From assembly GCA_020853775.1 (NCBI GenBank), contig JADYYH010000111.1, positions 1-60,338 on the forward strand: a stretch of 60,338 nt of DNA. The letters run 5' to 3'. Both the position numbers and the translations under genes were made by a program. Within the stretch, counting starts at the first letter, position 1. Every line of letters starts with the position of its first letter. Shown piece by piece: positions 55,695-60,338 of this stretch. Source of the DNA: Nitrospira sp. GTDB taxonomy: Bacteria > Nitrospirota > Nitrospiria > Nitrospirales > Nitrospiraceae. Below the pieces are notes generated by a model. The model did not search any database. It saw only the letters and a list, made by a program, of their open reading frames with translations, and was not told the DNA's origin.

Positions 55695-55770
55695 TCCCCG
55701 GTAGCTCAGTTGGTAGAGCAGCCGGCTGTTAACCGGCTGGTCGCAGGTTCGAGTCCTGCCCGGGGAGCCA
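55695..55770 (+). tRNA. tRNA-Asn (anticodon GTT), integration site of the mobile element
   Basis: A 76-nt cloverleaf TCCCCGGTAGCTCAG... with loop CTGTTAA (anticodon 55728-55730), T arm GGTTCGAGTCC and an encoded CCA end. The downstream serine recombinase gene runs antisense into its 3' half, so the tRNA 3' end is probably the attachment core of the element. Confidence 0.95.
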
Positions 55771-57273
55771 ACCTTTACGCTCCTGCGAACTCGTTCCCAT
55801 CTCGGCAAGTTCAAAGATATTAATGACGAGCTTGTCGGGGTGAACGATGATATCCCGCACCAAACACCGAAGTACTTCCATCTGCTCTTTCGGTAGCAAT
55901 GTCGCAAAGATCCTTTGAAAATCCTTCAGGTTTCGTAGAACGATCTCTGAATCATATTCCCTGGCCGAGTGCTCCTGAATCTGGCGTTGCACGGCCTGGT
56001 ACTGTGTTTCTAGGCTGTGCTGCTCTTTGTGCTGTCGATGCATCTCCGCTTCAAGGCGTTGAACCGAAACCGTCCCCTGCCCTACCCCTCGCACCAACCG
56101 ATCTATTTCTCGTTCTAGCCGGTCCAGACCTGCCCTGAGGCGAATGGCTTCCTGTTCCAGTGGTCGAACTCGCTCCTTTTGGTCTCGGTTCAACTCCTCC
56201 ACGGTCACCTTCACCCATTCAGCCTGCTGACTCAAGGTGGACAGGTATTCCACAACCTGTCGTTCTACCGCGTCGGCGTTGAGGGCCTTGACCGTACAGA
56301 CCGTATTGTTGTGCTGCATGGTCCTCGTGCAACGATAGTAGGCAATCCGGTTAATCGATTGATCCTTGCGGCGTTTCTGCGTGTAATGCGGGGTCATAGC
56401 CGACTGGCAGACACTGCATTTGAGCAACCCTTTGAGCAGAAACGTCCTCTGGATCTTCGTTTCGGCTCGCGTGTGCTCACGAGGCAATGACTGAACCTTG
56501 TGATACAACCCTTCTTCAATCAACGCCTCGTGGTCGCCTGGATAGAGTTGATCGTTGAATTGGATGCGCCCGCAATAGATGGGGTTCGTCAGGATATAGT
56601 CGAGCGTCATCTTTCCCCACGGCTTCCCGGTCCTGGAAAACCATCCTCTGCGCTGGAGCTCGGTACGGAGTCGGGTTAGCGATGGATCTTGGGCAAACTG
56701 CTGAAACATGAATTGGACGCAGGCCGCTTCCTCGGGATGCCTCACAAGGCGCTTATCCTCATTGCGATAACCAAAGGGAACATTCCCGCCATTCCACAGG
56801 CCCTTCGTCGCCCGCTGCTGCATTTTGTCTCGTGTGCGGTCGGCCGTCATCTCCCGTTCAAATTGGGCAAAGTCGAGCAGGATGTTTCGGAGCAGCCTCC
56901 CCATGGGATGGTGCGTATCGAGACTTTGGGTAATGGATACAAACTTGGCCCCATGGCGGTCGAACAAATCCATCAGGACATGGAAATCCTTGACCGATCT
57001 CGTCAATCGATCAATTTTGTACGCCAACACACAGGTAACCCGTCCAGCCCGAATATCCTGCAAGAGTTCCTTCAAGGCCGGTCGATTCATCGTATCCGCC
57101 GAAAAGCCAGCGTCTTCATAGACTCGATAAATGACGTATTGGTCCTGGCTCTTGCAGTAGGCCTCCAATTTTTCGCGTTGGGTTTCGAGGGAGCTATATT
57201 CGGTATCTGCCTGATTACGTGTGGAGACGCGCGTATAGAGGCCGCAGATTGTCGGGACAGGGGTAACCGCCAT
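55729..57273 (-). CDS. Large serine recombinase (element integrase)
   Basis: A 514-residue site-specific recombinase. The resolvase domain starts ICGLYTRVSTRNQADTEYSS with the nucleophile Ser17, then VLAYKIDRLTRSVKDFHVLM and LLDFAQFEREMTADRTRDKM. A recombinase domain follows (PFGYRNEDKRLVRHPEEAAC, LDYILTNPIYCGRIQFND), then a zinc ribbon (LKCSVCQSAMTPHY, YYRCTRTMQHNNTVC) and a coiled coil. Its last 13 codons and stop are antisense tRNA-Asn, the TAA lying over the anticodon loop. The start at 57273 overlaps the stop of the ImmA-like gene by one base (TAATG). Confidence 0.9.
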   Translation of the reverse strand: MAVTPVPTICGLYTRVSTRNQADTEYSSLETQREKLEAYCKSQDQYVIYRVYEDAGFSADTMNRPALKELLQDIRAGRVTCVLAYKIDRLTRSVKDFHVLMDLFDRHGAKFVSITQSLDTHHPMGRLLRNILLDFAQFEREMTADRTRDKMQQRATKGLWNGGNVPFGYRNEDKRLVRHPEEAACVQFMFQQFAQDPSLTRLRTELQRRGWFSRTGKPWGKMTLDYILTNPIYCGRIQFNDQLYPGDHEALIEEGLYHKVQSLPREHTRAETKIQRTFLLKGLLKCSVCQSAMTPHYTQKRRKDQSINRIAYYRCTRTMQHNNTVCTVKALNADAVERQVVEYLSTLSQQAEWVKVTVEELNRDQKERVRPLEQEAIRLRAGLDRLEREIDRLVRGVGQGTVSVQRLEAEMHRQHKEQHSLETQYQAVQRQIQEHSAREYDSEIVLRNLKDFQRIFATLLPKEQMEVLRCLVRDIIVHPDKLVINIFELAEMGTSSQERKGWLPGQDSNLRPAG

Positions 57274-57842
57274 TATGCCGTTCCTTTCGCTTGTAGACTC
57301 AATAGGGCCCGTTCTAGCCACTTGGCGAGGCGGATTCGCTGGTGATACCAGGCCACGTAGCAAATCACACGAAGTGCGCGCCATGCCATCCCTCGATTAT
57401 TGAGAACATAGAGAAAGACCTCGGCCTCAAGTCGCTCCTTGGGCAATGAGCCCATGAGCCAGACCAGGGCAAAGGCGTCTGCCTCGATGTCTCGGTGATC
57501 CGCCCGATCAAGTGAAAGCTGGGCGTCGGTCGCCCTCATGTCGGGAAGGTGCAAATGGACATGCCCCAGTTCGTGGGCGATGACAAATTGCCGATTTAAC
57601 GGGTTCAGTCCACGACGAAGCACAATCATGACCTGGCCCTCGTCCCGCGTCGTGATGCCCTCAATCTTGGGCCCAAACGAGGTTTCCAGGAGCTCTACCC
57701 CTTGGTTCGCGGCGGCTTCTTCTTGATTGTGAAATGGGACGGTTTGACAGTGGGGATAGACGGCTTGGAGTTTCTGAATAAAGCGTTCCGGTCGTCGCAA
57801 CCACTGAATCAATGCAGCGAGCAGACCGGAGACTGTCTTCAT
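57273..57842 (-). CDS. ImmA/IrrE-family metallopeptidase
   Basis: A 189-residue protein with the zinc protease motif VIAHELGHVHLHLP (H90-E91-H94) and the third ligand E120 in HRDIEADAFALVWLMG. Family members cleave an XRE-type repressor to release element excision or stress genes. Here it overlaps an XRE gene upstream by 4 bases and the recombinase downstream by one base. Repressor cleavage followed by recombinase supply is a natural reading. Confidence 0.88.
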   Translation of the reverse strand: MKTVSGLLAALIQWLRRPERFIQKLQAVYPHCQTVPFHNQEEAAANQGVELLETSFGPKIEGITTRDEGQVMIVLRRGLNPLNRQFVIAHELGHVHLHLPDMRATDAQLSLDRADHRDIEADAFALVWLMGSLPKERLEAEVFLYVLNNRGMAWRALRVICYVAWYHQRIRLAKWLERALLSLQAKGTA

Positions 57843-58219
57843 CGGCGCCCTCTCTTCTTCCGTTGATTGAGGATCACCGCCTGTAACTGCTTCATCGCCT
57901 CCTTCAGATCTGCCCTGGAGACTGCTTCGTGTGCACTCAACAGTGCCGGGAGCAGCATATCTGGGACGCGCTTCGCTTCGACAAGCAACCGTTCGGGCGG
58001 ATCGATGCGAAGGACCTCGGCTAGCTTGAGAATGAGGGTGTCGTCTGGCGGAAGTCCTCGTTCGCCCGATAATAGCCGCGAAAGATAGGCCGGCGAAATG
58101 CCGGCTTCGCTGGCCACGGTCCGGAGACTGAGGTTGACCGTTTCCATTTGCCTTTTAACCAAGGCACGAAATCCATGCGGGGCTTGAGGAGTCTCTCGAT
58201 TCATCTCTGGAGTATTCAT
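57839..58219 (-). CDS. XRE-family repressor-like protein (leftward arm)
   Basis: A 126-residue protein with an HTH_3 domain at about 18-75 (VNLSLRTVASEAGISPAYLS, then RLLSGERGLPPDDTLILKLA) and a C-terminal helical tail (HEAVSRADLKEAMKQLQAVI). It heads the XRE-ImmA-recombinase unit. The predicted start of its transcript is within about 2 nt of ATG 58219, which would make the mRNA leaderless; ATG 58204 is an alternative. It is the likely substrate of the ImmA-like protease. Confidence 0.85.
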   Translation of the reverse strand: MNTPEMNRETPQAPHGFRALVKRQMETVNLSLRTVASEAGISPAYLSRLLSGERGLPPDDTLILKLAEVLRIDPPERLLVEAKRVPDMLLPALLSAHEAVSRADLKEAMKQLQAVILNQRKKRGRR

Positions 58220-58227
58220 GGGACGAG

Positions 58228-58257
58228 TCTATACCTGAACTGTTGTCTTCCAGTCAA
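58228..58257 (-). promoter_or_regulatory. Leftward promoter with overlapping operator
   Basis: TTGACT (58257-58252) and TATAGA (58233-58228) with an 18-nt spacer on the minus strand. The inverted repeat CTGTTG-9-CAACAG (58240-58260) covers its -35 and part of the spacer, a natural repressor site. Confidence 0.7.
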
Positions 58258-58276
58258 CAGAAAATGCGTCCACATA

Positions 58277-58305
58277 TTGACCGTTGGGCAACGCCTCTCT
58301 ATAGT
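58277..58305 (+). promoter_or_regulatory. Rightward promoter with operator in the spacer
   Basis: TTGACC (58277-58282), a 17-nt spacer and TATAGT (58300-58305). The spacer carries CGTTG-GG-CAACG (58282-58293), which shares the GTTG/CAAC half-sites of the leftward operator. The start site would lie 14 nt before the XRE gene at 58326. Confidence 0.72.
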
Positions 58306-58325
58306 GCGCTGCACGGAGGACGAAG

Positions 58326-58592
58326 ATGATTAAGAACAACCTCAAAGAGTGGCGAGCCCGCCAAGCTCAACGCGGCATTTCTAAGGCTGCCCTCGCCCGC
58401 AGGATTCGGGTGAACCGTTCCTATGTCACAAAACTGGAGCAGGGAAAGGCAGTCCCGAGTCTGCAGGTCGCCCTGCAACTCGCTGAGTATTTCGGCTGCA
58501 CCGTGGATGAACTCTTTCAGTTACAGACCGAAACGACCGTCGAACTTTGCCGTACCGATATGTTGCCCAATGGGCATTCACATGAAGATTGA
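58326..58592 (+). CDS. XRE-family regulator (rightward arm)
   Basis: An 88-residue HTH_3 protein: LKEWRARQAQRGISKAALAR, then RIRVNRSYVTKLEQGKAVPS with the recognition helix, and LQLAEYFGCTVDELFQL. It is Cro-like in size. GGAGG sits 6 nt before ATG 58326. It faces away from the other XRE gene across a 106-bp operator region. Confidence 0.88.
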   Translation: MIKNNLKEWRARQAQRGISKAALARRIRVNRSYVTKLEQGKAVPSLQVALQLAEYFGCTVDELFQLQTETTVELCRTDMLPNGHSHED

Positions 58593-58776
58593 AATTCATT
58601 TCGTCCCAGTCGATCCGCAGGCACGTGTAGAACGCACCGACTTGCTGCGGTCGCTTCTACTCCAGGGCGCGCGACGACTCGCCACAAGTCCTGTCGATCT
58701 TCCTATGAACTGCACGGAGCCACCTGCATCGGCTCTCACGTCCCAACCCATGCCTCGGGAGTCTTTTCATGTCTGA
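58582..58776 (+). CDS. Short protein of unknown function, overlapping XRE and Rep-like genes
   Basis: A 64-residue frame, MKIEIHFVPVDPQARVERTD onward, overlapping the XRE gene end by 11 bases and the next gene start by 8. I see no family. Tight overlap on both sides in one strand suggests it is a true translated part of the element, but codon evidence is thin. ATG 58570 is an alternative start. Confidence 0.5.
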   Translation: MKIEIHFVPVDPQARVERTDLLRSLLLQGARRLATSPVDLPMNCTEPPASALTSQPMPRESFHV

Positions 58777-59515
58777 AGCCTACCCCTCCAGGTTCGAATC
58801 ACGTCCGCAAGCTCCGCGGTCCGGTGGTCGCCCTGTCAGACCGGAATGGTCGCGCAAACAAAAGCGTGGGTATCAACGGGTCCGTTCGCTCCTATGGTTT
58901 TGGGAAGCCCATCACTTCCAAGTGTTATGGGTCACCCTTTCCACGGCAGAGGGCGGTCAGGCCGACAAGCTGACCTATCACCACAAACAATTACGCCAGC
59001 GGATCGAACGGCAGCTCGGCTATCGAGGATTGGAGTACTACCAGGTTCGCACGGAAGAAGGTCACGGCGTGCTCCATATCTTCTGGGCTTGGCGAGTCCC
59101 GGATGGCGAGCGTCCTCGTCGGTTTTGGATCTCGCAGGAATGGCTCTCGGCGCAATGGGAAGCCCTCCACGGGGCTCCGGTGGTCTGGATCAAGGCTTAC
59201 AAGCCGGGGCATCGCTCCCGGAACCGCCTCAGCCGGTATGTCATCAGCCAATATGTCCAGGACCAATCGGGCTACGTGAATATGTGCTGGTCTTGGAAAC
59301 GGTCTCTCGGCTTTCCCATGAGTGCCTTATGGGAAGAGATGCGCAATCAATGGTCCAGCCGGAACGTGTTTCGTCGAATTCGAGGAGAGATCGAGATTCC
59401 CCGCGTCGTTCTCTTCAAAACCTGGGAAGACCTGCTCGCCGGGCATGCCATCTGGTTCAACGGATTCATTCTGCAACTGGTCCTGGGTAAAGGCCTCATC
59501 TGTGAGAAGCCATGA
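58769..59515 (+). CDS. Rep-like protein of the mobile element (tentative)
   Basis: A 248-residue basic protein rich in Trp and Arg. It has VLWVTLST (52-59) in the place of Rep motif I, GHGVLHIFW (H99, H103) in the place of the HUH motif and SRYVISQYVQDQ (Y157, Y162) in the place of the Tyr motif of rolling-circle initiators, with WSWKRSLGFP after it as seen in inovirus-type Reps. The HUH is incomplete (only one His in the core) and no Lys follows the Tyr, so catalysis is doubtful. I can support DNA-handling only weakly; no firm family call. Confidence 0.5.
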   Translation: MSEAYPSRFESRPQAPRSGGRPVRPEWSRKQKRGYQRVRSLLWFWEAHHFQVLWVTLSTAEGGQADKLTYHHKQLRQRIERQLGYRGLEYYQVRTEEGHGVLHIFWAWRVPDGERPRRFWISQEWLSAQWEALHGAPVVWIKAYKPGHRSRNRLSRYVISQYVQDQSGYVNMCWSWKRSLGFPMSALWEEMRNQWSSRNVFRRIRGEIEIPRVVLFKTWEDLLAGHAIWFNGFILQLVLGKGLICEKP

Positions 59516-59763
59516 GCCATAACACCTGTGTGCGAAAAGTTGAGTCTCTGTTTGGTCAGACCTGCTGCGGACGGCCTGGCCTGATCTATGATCGAGCCCG
59601 AAAGGGCTGGCTCTGCGCTGAACACAGTCAAGAACGCTTGTGCGAGTTCTGTCAGGCCGATTGGGTGTGGGGCCGCATTTGCTACCAAGCAGAAGGCGTG
59701 ACCCAAGAAATTCTGCTCTGCTCTGCCTGCGCTGGCCTCACCTTCCGCAAATCCCGTTACTAA
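59512..59763 (+). CDS. Cysteine-rich small protein, possible zinc finger
   Basis: An 83-residue protein with nine Cys: C6, C18, C19, C35, C44, C47, C57, C70 and C73, arranged as ERLCEFCQADW and LLCSACAGLTF pairs that fit treble-clef or ribbon zinc sites. It overlaps the Rep-like gene by 4 bases (ATGA), so the two are coupled. Family not recognised; a Rep accessory or DNA-binding role is a guess. Confidence 0.65.
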   Translation: MSHNTCVRKVESLFGQTCCGRPGLIYDRARKGWLCAEHSQERLCEFCQADWVWGRICYQAEGVTQEILLCSACAGLTFRKSRY

Positions 59764-60338
59764 CCTCTCGGTTTCCCTTACAACCAATCCATACCACCCT
59801 GTCACCCTGCTGGCCTCCAGGGGTGAGAGGGAAGTGTCAGAACGGCAGTTATCAAATGATGACGGCGATGCGCTAGCTTGGCCGTCCCCTTGGAAAGGCT
59901 TGGGCATCCTTATGGGAAGGACAGGGACTTACAGGACCACGGCGATTAATCGAAGAAGAACCCAACCCCACGAAGGCCCGCCGGCCGTTCCGGGTCACGC
60001 GGACCGGACGGCCGGGGGGCTCGGGGGCGCAGCCCCCGCTTCACTTGATTCATATGGTCATAATAGAACGACACTGTCTCTTTCGATTTCATCAGGCCAA
60101 TGTCCCCACTTCAGTCATATTCGCGGCTTTGAGTTTGGATGAATCGAGAGATTGCCTTTTCTCAAATTAAAGATTGGCCTCACCAGCTCTCTGGTTGGAT
60201 TTCTTCAGGTGACTTCGGGCATTCAGAGGGTGGTGATTCATTACCCCTACTGTTTTTATCAATCCTTGACGGATCTCAGTACTAGATAGTGTAGTCACGA
60301 GATATGGAGCCAAAGGGCAAGGCAACGGATTTGGACGG
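59764..60338. other. Non-coding hairpin-rich right end
   Basis: 575 bp without a convincing gene. It holds two GC-rich hairpins (59981-60015 and 60022-60038). A 48-codon frame at 60139-60285 and a GTG-started 102-codon frame at 59834 have no supporting signal. No repeat of the tRNA-Asn 3' end, which would mark the far attachment site, was seen. Confidence 0.5.
59981..60038. repeat. Two adjacent strong hairpins
   Basis: CCGGCCGT (59981-59988) pairs with ACGGCCGG (60008-60015), with further inner pairing TCCGG/CCGGA. Seven bases later CGGGGGC and GCCCCCG (60022-60038) form a 7-bp stem with a 3-nt loop. They lie 220 bp downstream of the Rep-like and Cys-rich genes. Confidence 0.6.

Follow-up and report, generated by a model that had tools for sequence, protein, structure and literature searches.

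The window, a 60,338-nucleotide stretch of a Nitrospira sp. contig, contains a 106-bp gap (58220-58325) between two genes for XRE-family regulators that are read away from each other. On the left, the operon order is xre1-M78 protease-serine recombinase. XRE1 (57839-58219, minus strand; 126 aa; Pfam HTH_31/HTH_3) is a candidate repressor, and the stop of its gene is overlapped by 4 nt by the gene of a candidate anti-repressor, an ImmA/IrrE/CapP-like M78 metallopeptidase (57273-57842, minus strand; PF06114, E = 2e-9). The third gene encodes a large serine recombinase, or integrase (55729-57384, minus strand; Pfam Resolvase/Recombinase/Zn_ribbon; PHROG integrase, E = 4e-118), whose true start may be internal. 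On the right, the order is xre2-ORF63-rep-ORF83. XRE2 (58326-58592, plus strand; 88 aa) is a small CylR2/Cro-like regulator (Pfam HTH_3, E = 1e-14; CylR2 in the PDB, E = 6e-10), followed by a small ORF read as 63 codons (58585-58776, plus strand) that belongs to no family and is 43-71% identical or truncated in relatives. A rolling-circle-type Rep of 248 aa (58769-59515, plus strand) and a small Cys-rich protein (59512-59763, plus strand), which adjoins nearly every Rep copy and likewise has no family, complete the series.

We identified a sigma-70-type promoter for each operon within the gap. The leftward promoter has the -35 box TTGACT (58257-58252, minus strand) and the -10 box TATAGA (58233-58228, minus strand) with a spacer of 18, and the rightward promoter has TTGACC (58277-58282, plus strand) and TATAGT (58300-58305, plus strand) with a spacer of 17. 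A preliminary description of this DNA, made from the sequence, had given these hexamers and spacers and the 106-bp length exactly as we find them. It had called the promoters face-to-face; from the coordinates of the hexamers they are divergent and lie back to back, the -35 boxes (58257 and 58277) being separated by 19 bp. Scored on both strands (120,624 positions) with an E. coli-style weight matrix of approximate values, the rightward promoter ranks 7th and the leftward 21st, and this is the sole divergent pair scoring that high in the window. A simple promoter scan reported only the rightward promoter, because its rule demands T at the last base of the -10 box. Rightward transcripts are predicted to start near 58312, ahead of a Shine-Dalgarno sequence GGAGG for XRE2 (58315-58319, plus strand) whose GGAG core is invariant in nine copies of the region. 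The predicted leftward start is at about 58219-58222. Since the leftward -10 box ends 8 nt from the XRE1 ATG (58219), and this ATG is invariant across the nine copies, the XRE1 message is likely leaderless. This agrees with the suggestion in the preliminary description that the leftward message starts near the repressor ATG, as lambda cI does from PRM.

Each promoter carries a candidate operator of 17 bp with the form RTTGNC-N5-GNCAAC. Operator 1 (58242-58258), GTTGTC-N5-GTCAAC, contains the leftward -35 box, and its half-sites are invariant in the nine copies except for inner bases; operator 2 (58276-58292), ATTGACC-N4-GGCAAC, contains the rightward -35 box, and its TTGACC and GGCAAC are invariant in all nine. 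The inner bases of the shared form differ in one or two copies. The two centres are 34-35 bp apart, or about 3.3 helical turns. Each operator overlies the -35 box of its promoter in the same orientation relative to that promoter, such that the half-site nearer the centre of the region doubles as the -35 box and the other half (TGTTG or GGCAAC) lies within the promoter spacer. Sigma-70 needs no sequence in the spacer, and the distal halves TGTTG and GGCAAC are not promoter elements. In an alignment of the nine intergenic regions, the blocks TGTTG, GTCAAC, TTGACC and GGCAAC are unchanged in 23 of 23 columns versus 8 of 62 for the other intergenic columns, a contrast that is descriptive and carries no formal probability, the blocks having been chosen after viewing the alignment. 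Divergence among the copies is large: synonymous distances from the window start at about 0.4 and exceed 1.5 at the upper end, and of 164 fourfold-degenerate sites just 8 are identical throughout the nine. In L019, the copy farthest diverged, the operators persist while the -10 boxes have drifted.

Conservation also tells which of the inverted repeats is the operator. The preliminary description had proposed two GTTG/CAAC inverted repeats overlapping the two promoters, and both are present in the sequence: CTGTTG-N9-CAACAG at 58240-58260 and CGTTGGGCAACG at 58282-58293. The overlap with the promoters holds, as the operators are superimposed on the -35 boxes, and the first repeat encloses operator 1. 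The second is mis-registered. In the left half of CGTTGGGCAACG just one column in five is invariant, most relatives having ATTAG, ATGAG or ACTAG, while TTGACC and GGCAAC are each invariant in 6 of 6; this palindrome has the wrong register and the wrong left half, and as an operator it is ruled out by conservation in favor of 58276-58292. The correction replaces a palindrome found by eye with one identified from its relatives.

The operator pair is specific to genomes that carry the neighboring genes. The window has 4 occurrences of the motif TTGNCN5GNCAA, where 1.2 would be expected, and a pair within 60 bp occurred in none of 200 simulated (Markov) windows. The complete pair is found once per genome in 9 of 175 family genomes, as against 0 for the reversed control, and these are exactly the nine genomes carrying XRE1, M78 and XRE2; the viral contigs searched do not contain it. 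Conserved palindromes over promoters could suit any dimeric regulator, and the blocks might accordingly be bound by a host protein, for example of the SOS or stress response, rather than by a protein of the element. We regard this as very improbable: none of the searched genomes that lack the element has the pair, and in genome-wide counts over 29 genus genomes the single motif is not markedly commoner than the reversed control, which argues against a regulator serving the host at large. The co-occurrence cannot tell XRE1 from XRE2 as the binder, because the same nine genomes carry both. XRE2, which always accompanies the operators, could bind them alone or with XRE1.

Properties of XRE1 and of its M78 neighbour fit a repressor and anti-repressor pair. 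Its HTH is nearly invariant even in the most divergent copy, and the M78 residues of the HExxH and EAD motifs (H90-E91-H94 and E120) are invariant in all nine. Values of dN/dS for XRE1, XRE2, M78 and Rep are mostly 0.03-0.15, indicating purifying selection. The structure model of XRE1 has a five-helix HTH followed by two C-terminal helices (87-99 and 105-124) joined near residue 100, the C-terminal part being of moderate confidence only (blocks of pLDDT 58-73). ImmR has 127 aa, and the bond cut by ImmA, F95-M96, falls between two helices predicted for its C-terminal region (PMC8960796). Structural matches to the model include the DNA-binding domain of ImmR (7t8i, Z 8.0), DdrO (6rnz, Z 8.2) and CapH (7t5u, Z 9.2), although such matches, at Z 8-11, are generic for XRE domains and the HTH fold is common to many XRE proteins. 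Of the defence-library matches of the protease capP is the best (PADLOC, E = 2e-11), and XRE1 has a weak match to capH (E = 0.003). No relatives of XRE1 were found among viral contigs and no match in phage and plasmid collections, so that no phage relative can be named. One distant XRE1 relative, in G055 (L010), lies in a separate element that has an XRE, an M78 and a recombinase of its own but not the motif.

The capP match, together with reports in which XRE-M78 pairs of some bacteria are described as modules of the toxin-antitoxin kind (PMC10538038), raises the alternative that XRE1 and M78 form a toxin-antitoxin pair or a defence regulator, the operators serving simple autoregulation. We find this improbable, if less so than a host regulator. 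In nine of nine copies the pair is flanked by the recombinase on one side and the rep operon on the other, the second operator would control xre2-rep, and ImmRA of TnSmu1, when tested, did not behave as a toxin-antitoxin system (PMC10233336).

The arrangement more closely resembles the ImmR/ImmA modules of integrative elements. We base this comparison on the M78 protein, which is closest to CapP and has intact catalytic residues, on the ImmR-like layout of XRE1, and on TnSmu1, where the same XRE/M78 pairing controls excision (PMC10233336). The preliminary description made no mention of the M78 gene overlapping the repressor gene, which is the ImmR/ImmA or CapH/CapP arrangement. As in ICEBs1 of Bacillus subtilis and the ImmRA module of TnSmu1, a repressor of about 127 aa is adjacent to an M78 gene, and a divergent promoter serves transfer or replication genes, with repressor sites (here predicted) in both promoter regions; as in ICEBs1, the integrase is transcribed on the same side. 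Unlike those elements, the locus has two operators rather than six and a serine rather than a tyrosine recombinase, and a second XRE gene and a plasmid-type Rep replace xis and the conjugation genes. CapH/CapP, which controls CBASS, and DdrO/PprI also join an HTH repressor to an M78 protease, and the CapH and DdrO domains are among the structural matches of XRE1, but those systems control defence or DNA-repair genes, whereas here the genes under control would be those of a recombinase and Rep.

We therefore think it probable that the gap serves a small integrative element of Nitrospira as its immunity and induction switch, an ImmR/ImmA-type module whose single repressor shuts off the int and the rep operons alike. 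In this circuit, XRE1 would be made from a leaderless message off the leftward promoter and would bind as a dimer to the two equivalent 17-bp operators, one at each -35 box. Given the like placement and orientation of the operators on the -35 boxes, one protein should repress both promoters, and XRE1 would thereby shut down the operon that encodes it (xre1-M78 protease-serine recombinase) together with the outward one (xre2-ORF63-rep-ORF83). On a signal, the M78 protease would inactivate XRE1, as ImmA does ImmR, and loss of XRE1 would free both operons together, allowing excision and Rep-driven replication at once. XRE2, as the product of the first gene of the freed operon, would probably act as a Cro-like modulator. 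The strict form of this scheme is a double lock, in which a single XRE protein silences the recombinase and the rolling-circle Rep through two equivalent -35 operators and a single protease cut opens both; we put it forward tentatively, as a fair candidate of which we are not yet persuaded. If true, it would represent ImmR/ImmA-like logic pared down to a pair of sites, with a second XRE gene joined to it, on a replicative and apparently non-conjugative Nitrospira element.

The preliminary description had instead read the gap as a lambda-like, bistable switch. The likeness to lambda OR (cI/cro, PRM/PR) is evident in the pair of HTH regulators with two divergent promoters between them, the overlapping operators and the probably leaderless repressor message. 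In a switch of the cI/Cro type, both operators would be contested by XRE1 and XRE2, whose preferences would be opposite, XRE1 shutting the rightward promoter and XRE2 the leftward, to give two heritable states. Such competition would suit the divergent XRE genes that flank the operators, the resemblance of small XRE2 to CylR2 and phage-type repressors, and the slight differences of inner bases between the operators (TTGACT..GACAAC versus TTGACC..GGCAAC), which are kept in most relatives. The architecture argues otherwise. Lambda OR has three sites, and here there are only two, 34-35 bp apart, with both -35 boxes within operators; given their identical placement, both promoters should respond alike. 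We see no sign of mutual exclusion, nor of activation. We found no third operator or activator site, although weak sites could have escaped detection, and the complete 9.3-kb relative described below contains no further motif match beyond the two in the switch. XRE1 also lacks a self-cleaving domain, and a dedicated protease that could inactivate it is encoded separately. We consider a bistable switch unlikely, and this part of the preliminary description unsupported.

The same description had assigned the switch to an integrated element rather than a phage proper, and this is borne out at the element ends. The end of the serine recombinase gene overlaps a tRNA-Asn (GTT) gene (55695-55770, plus strand; ARAGORN), and the attachment core (attL) is formed by the 3' end of that gene, CGGGGAGCCA. 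This core is directly repeated at both element ends, with right-end copies in three relatives (L063, L068 and L070), and empty sites are present in others (L079-L088). The attR of L063 runs on exactly into the empty-site sequence of L088, which delimits an element of 9.3 kb; that of L070 is 8.3 kb. The locus is a tRNA-targeting integrative element. In the window, the contig stops within the element, before attR. Searches identified the XRE1/M78/XRE2 module in eight further family genomes, nine in all, and it lies at tRNA-Asn in eight of the nine, the ninth (G145) having it in tandem with a neighboring element at that tRNA. Only decayed recombinase remnants are found at the tRNA in G246 and G141. 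The larger ORFs of this 9.3-kb L063 element include no recognised relaxase or conjugation gene.

Tandem elements occur at this tRNA-Asn (L108:2230-10930; L068 past attR): in G145 and G123 the element described here has as its neighbor a second, different one of the serine-recombinase kind, with the end AATCTAGACC. The assembly of the window also has a second tRNA-Asn locus (L105, G000:C34:17841-21307), apparently an empty site, which is 81% identical to the window flank; the bin, with a contamination of 4.56%, may mix two Nitrospira strains.

Rep is distantly related to that of the Thermotoga miniplasmids pRQ7/pRKU1 (27% identity, E = 4e-6), which, unlike the element, are free 846-bp plasmids without integrase or repressor. 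It has the conserved motifs GVLHIFW and YVISQYV and likely an HUH fold; its model is of low confidence (mean pLDDT 56), with 2x3g, which we take to be SIRV1 Rep, as the closest structure (Z 7.4). A profile search of Rep against solved structures returned nothing, and only one relative was found in viral contigs. There are up to six Rep copies per genome. The other copies inspected (L037, L041, L048 and L075) have a tyrosine recombinase and a CGNR-like zinc-finger protein, both named by eye from sequence, in place of the switch, and varied cargo. The regulatory and integration modules thus seem exchangeable around a common Rep core. Downstream of the right operon lies a GC-rich inverted-repeat block (59978-60065), a candidate replication origin or terminator that most Rep elements have kept. 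This block, which ends in GGGGGCGCAGCCCCCGCTTCACTTGAT, is nearly identical in more than 35 Rep-bearing loci of both element types (the window, L032, L041, L048 and others). An insertion of about 1.3 kb in ORF63, between xre2 and rep, is present in G145 (L065:8814-10100) and probably separates Rep from the switch promoter.

The switch is real and well conserved, and it is of an ordinary sort, probably the ImmR/ImmA-like immunity module of an integrative element in Nitrospira. Nitrospira are important nitrite oxidisers of wastewater treatment, and we know of no characterised mobile-element regulation in the genus; the gap offers a compact, testable regulatory circuit for a mobile-element family there. 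Since related copies carry a chlorite dismutase gene and a two-component system between attL and attR, the switch may govern the spread of that trait. In the L063 element (L063:9007-12159), the chlorite dismutase gene (Pfam, E = 8e-32) lies behind a response regulator and a histidine kinase. We observed the same trio in L068 and, after Rep, in L037, which is of the tyrosine-recombinase type, and the dismutase gene also in L070; in Nitrospira, the enzyme may be carried as cargo by mobile elements.
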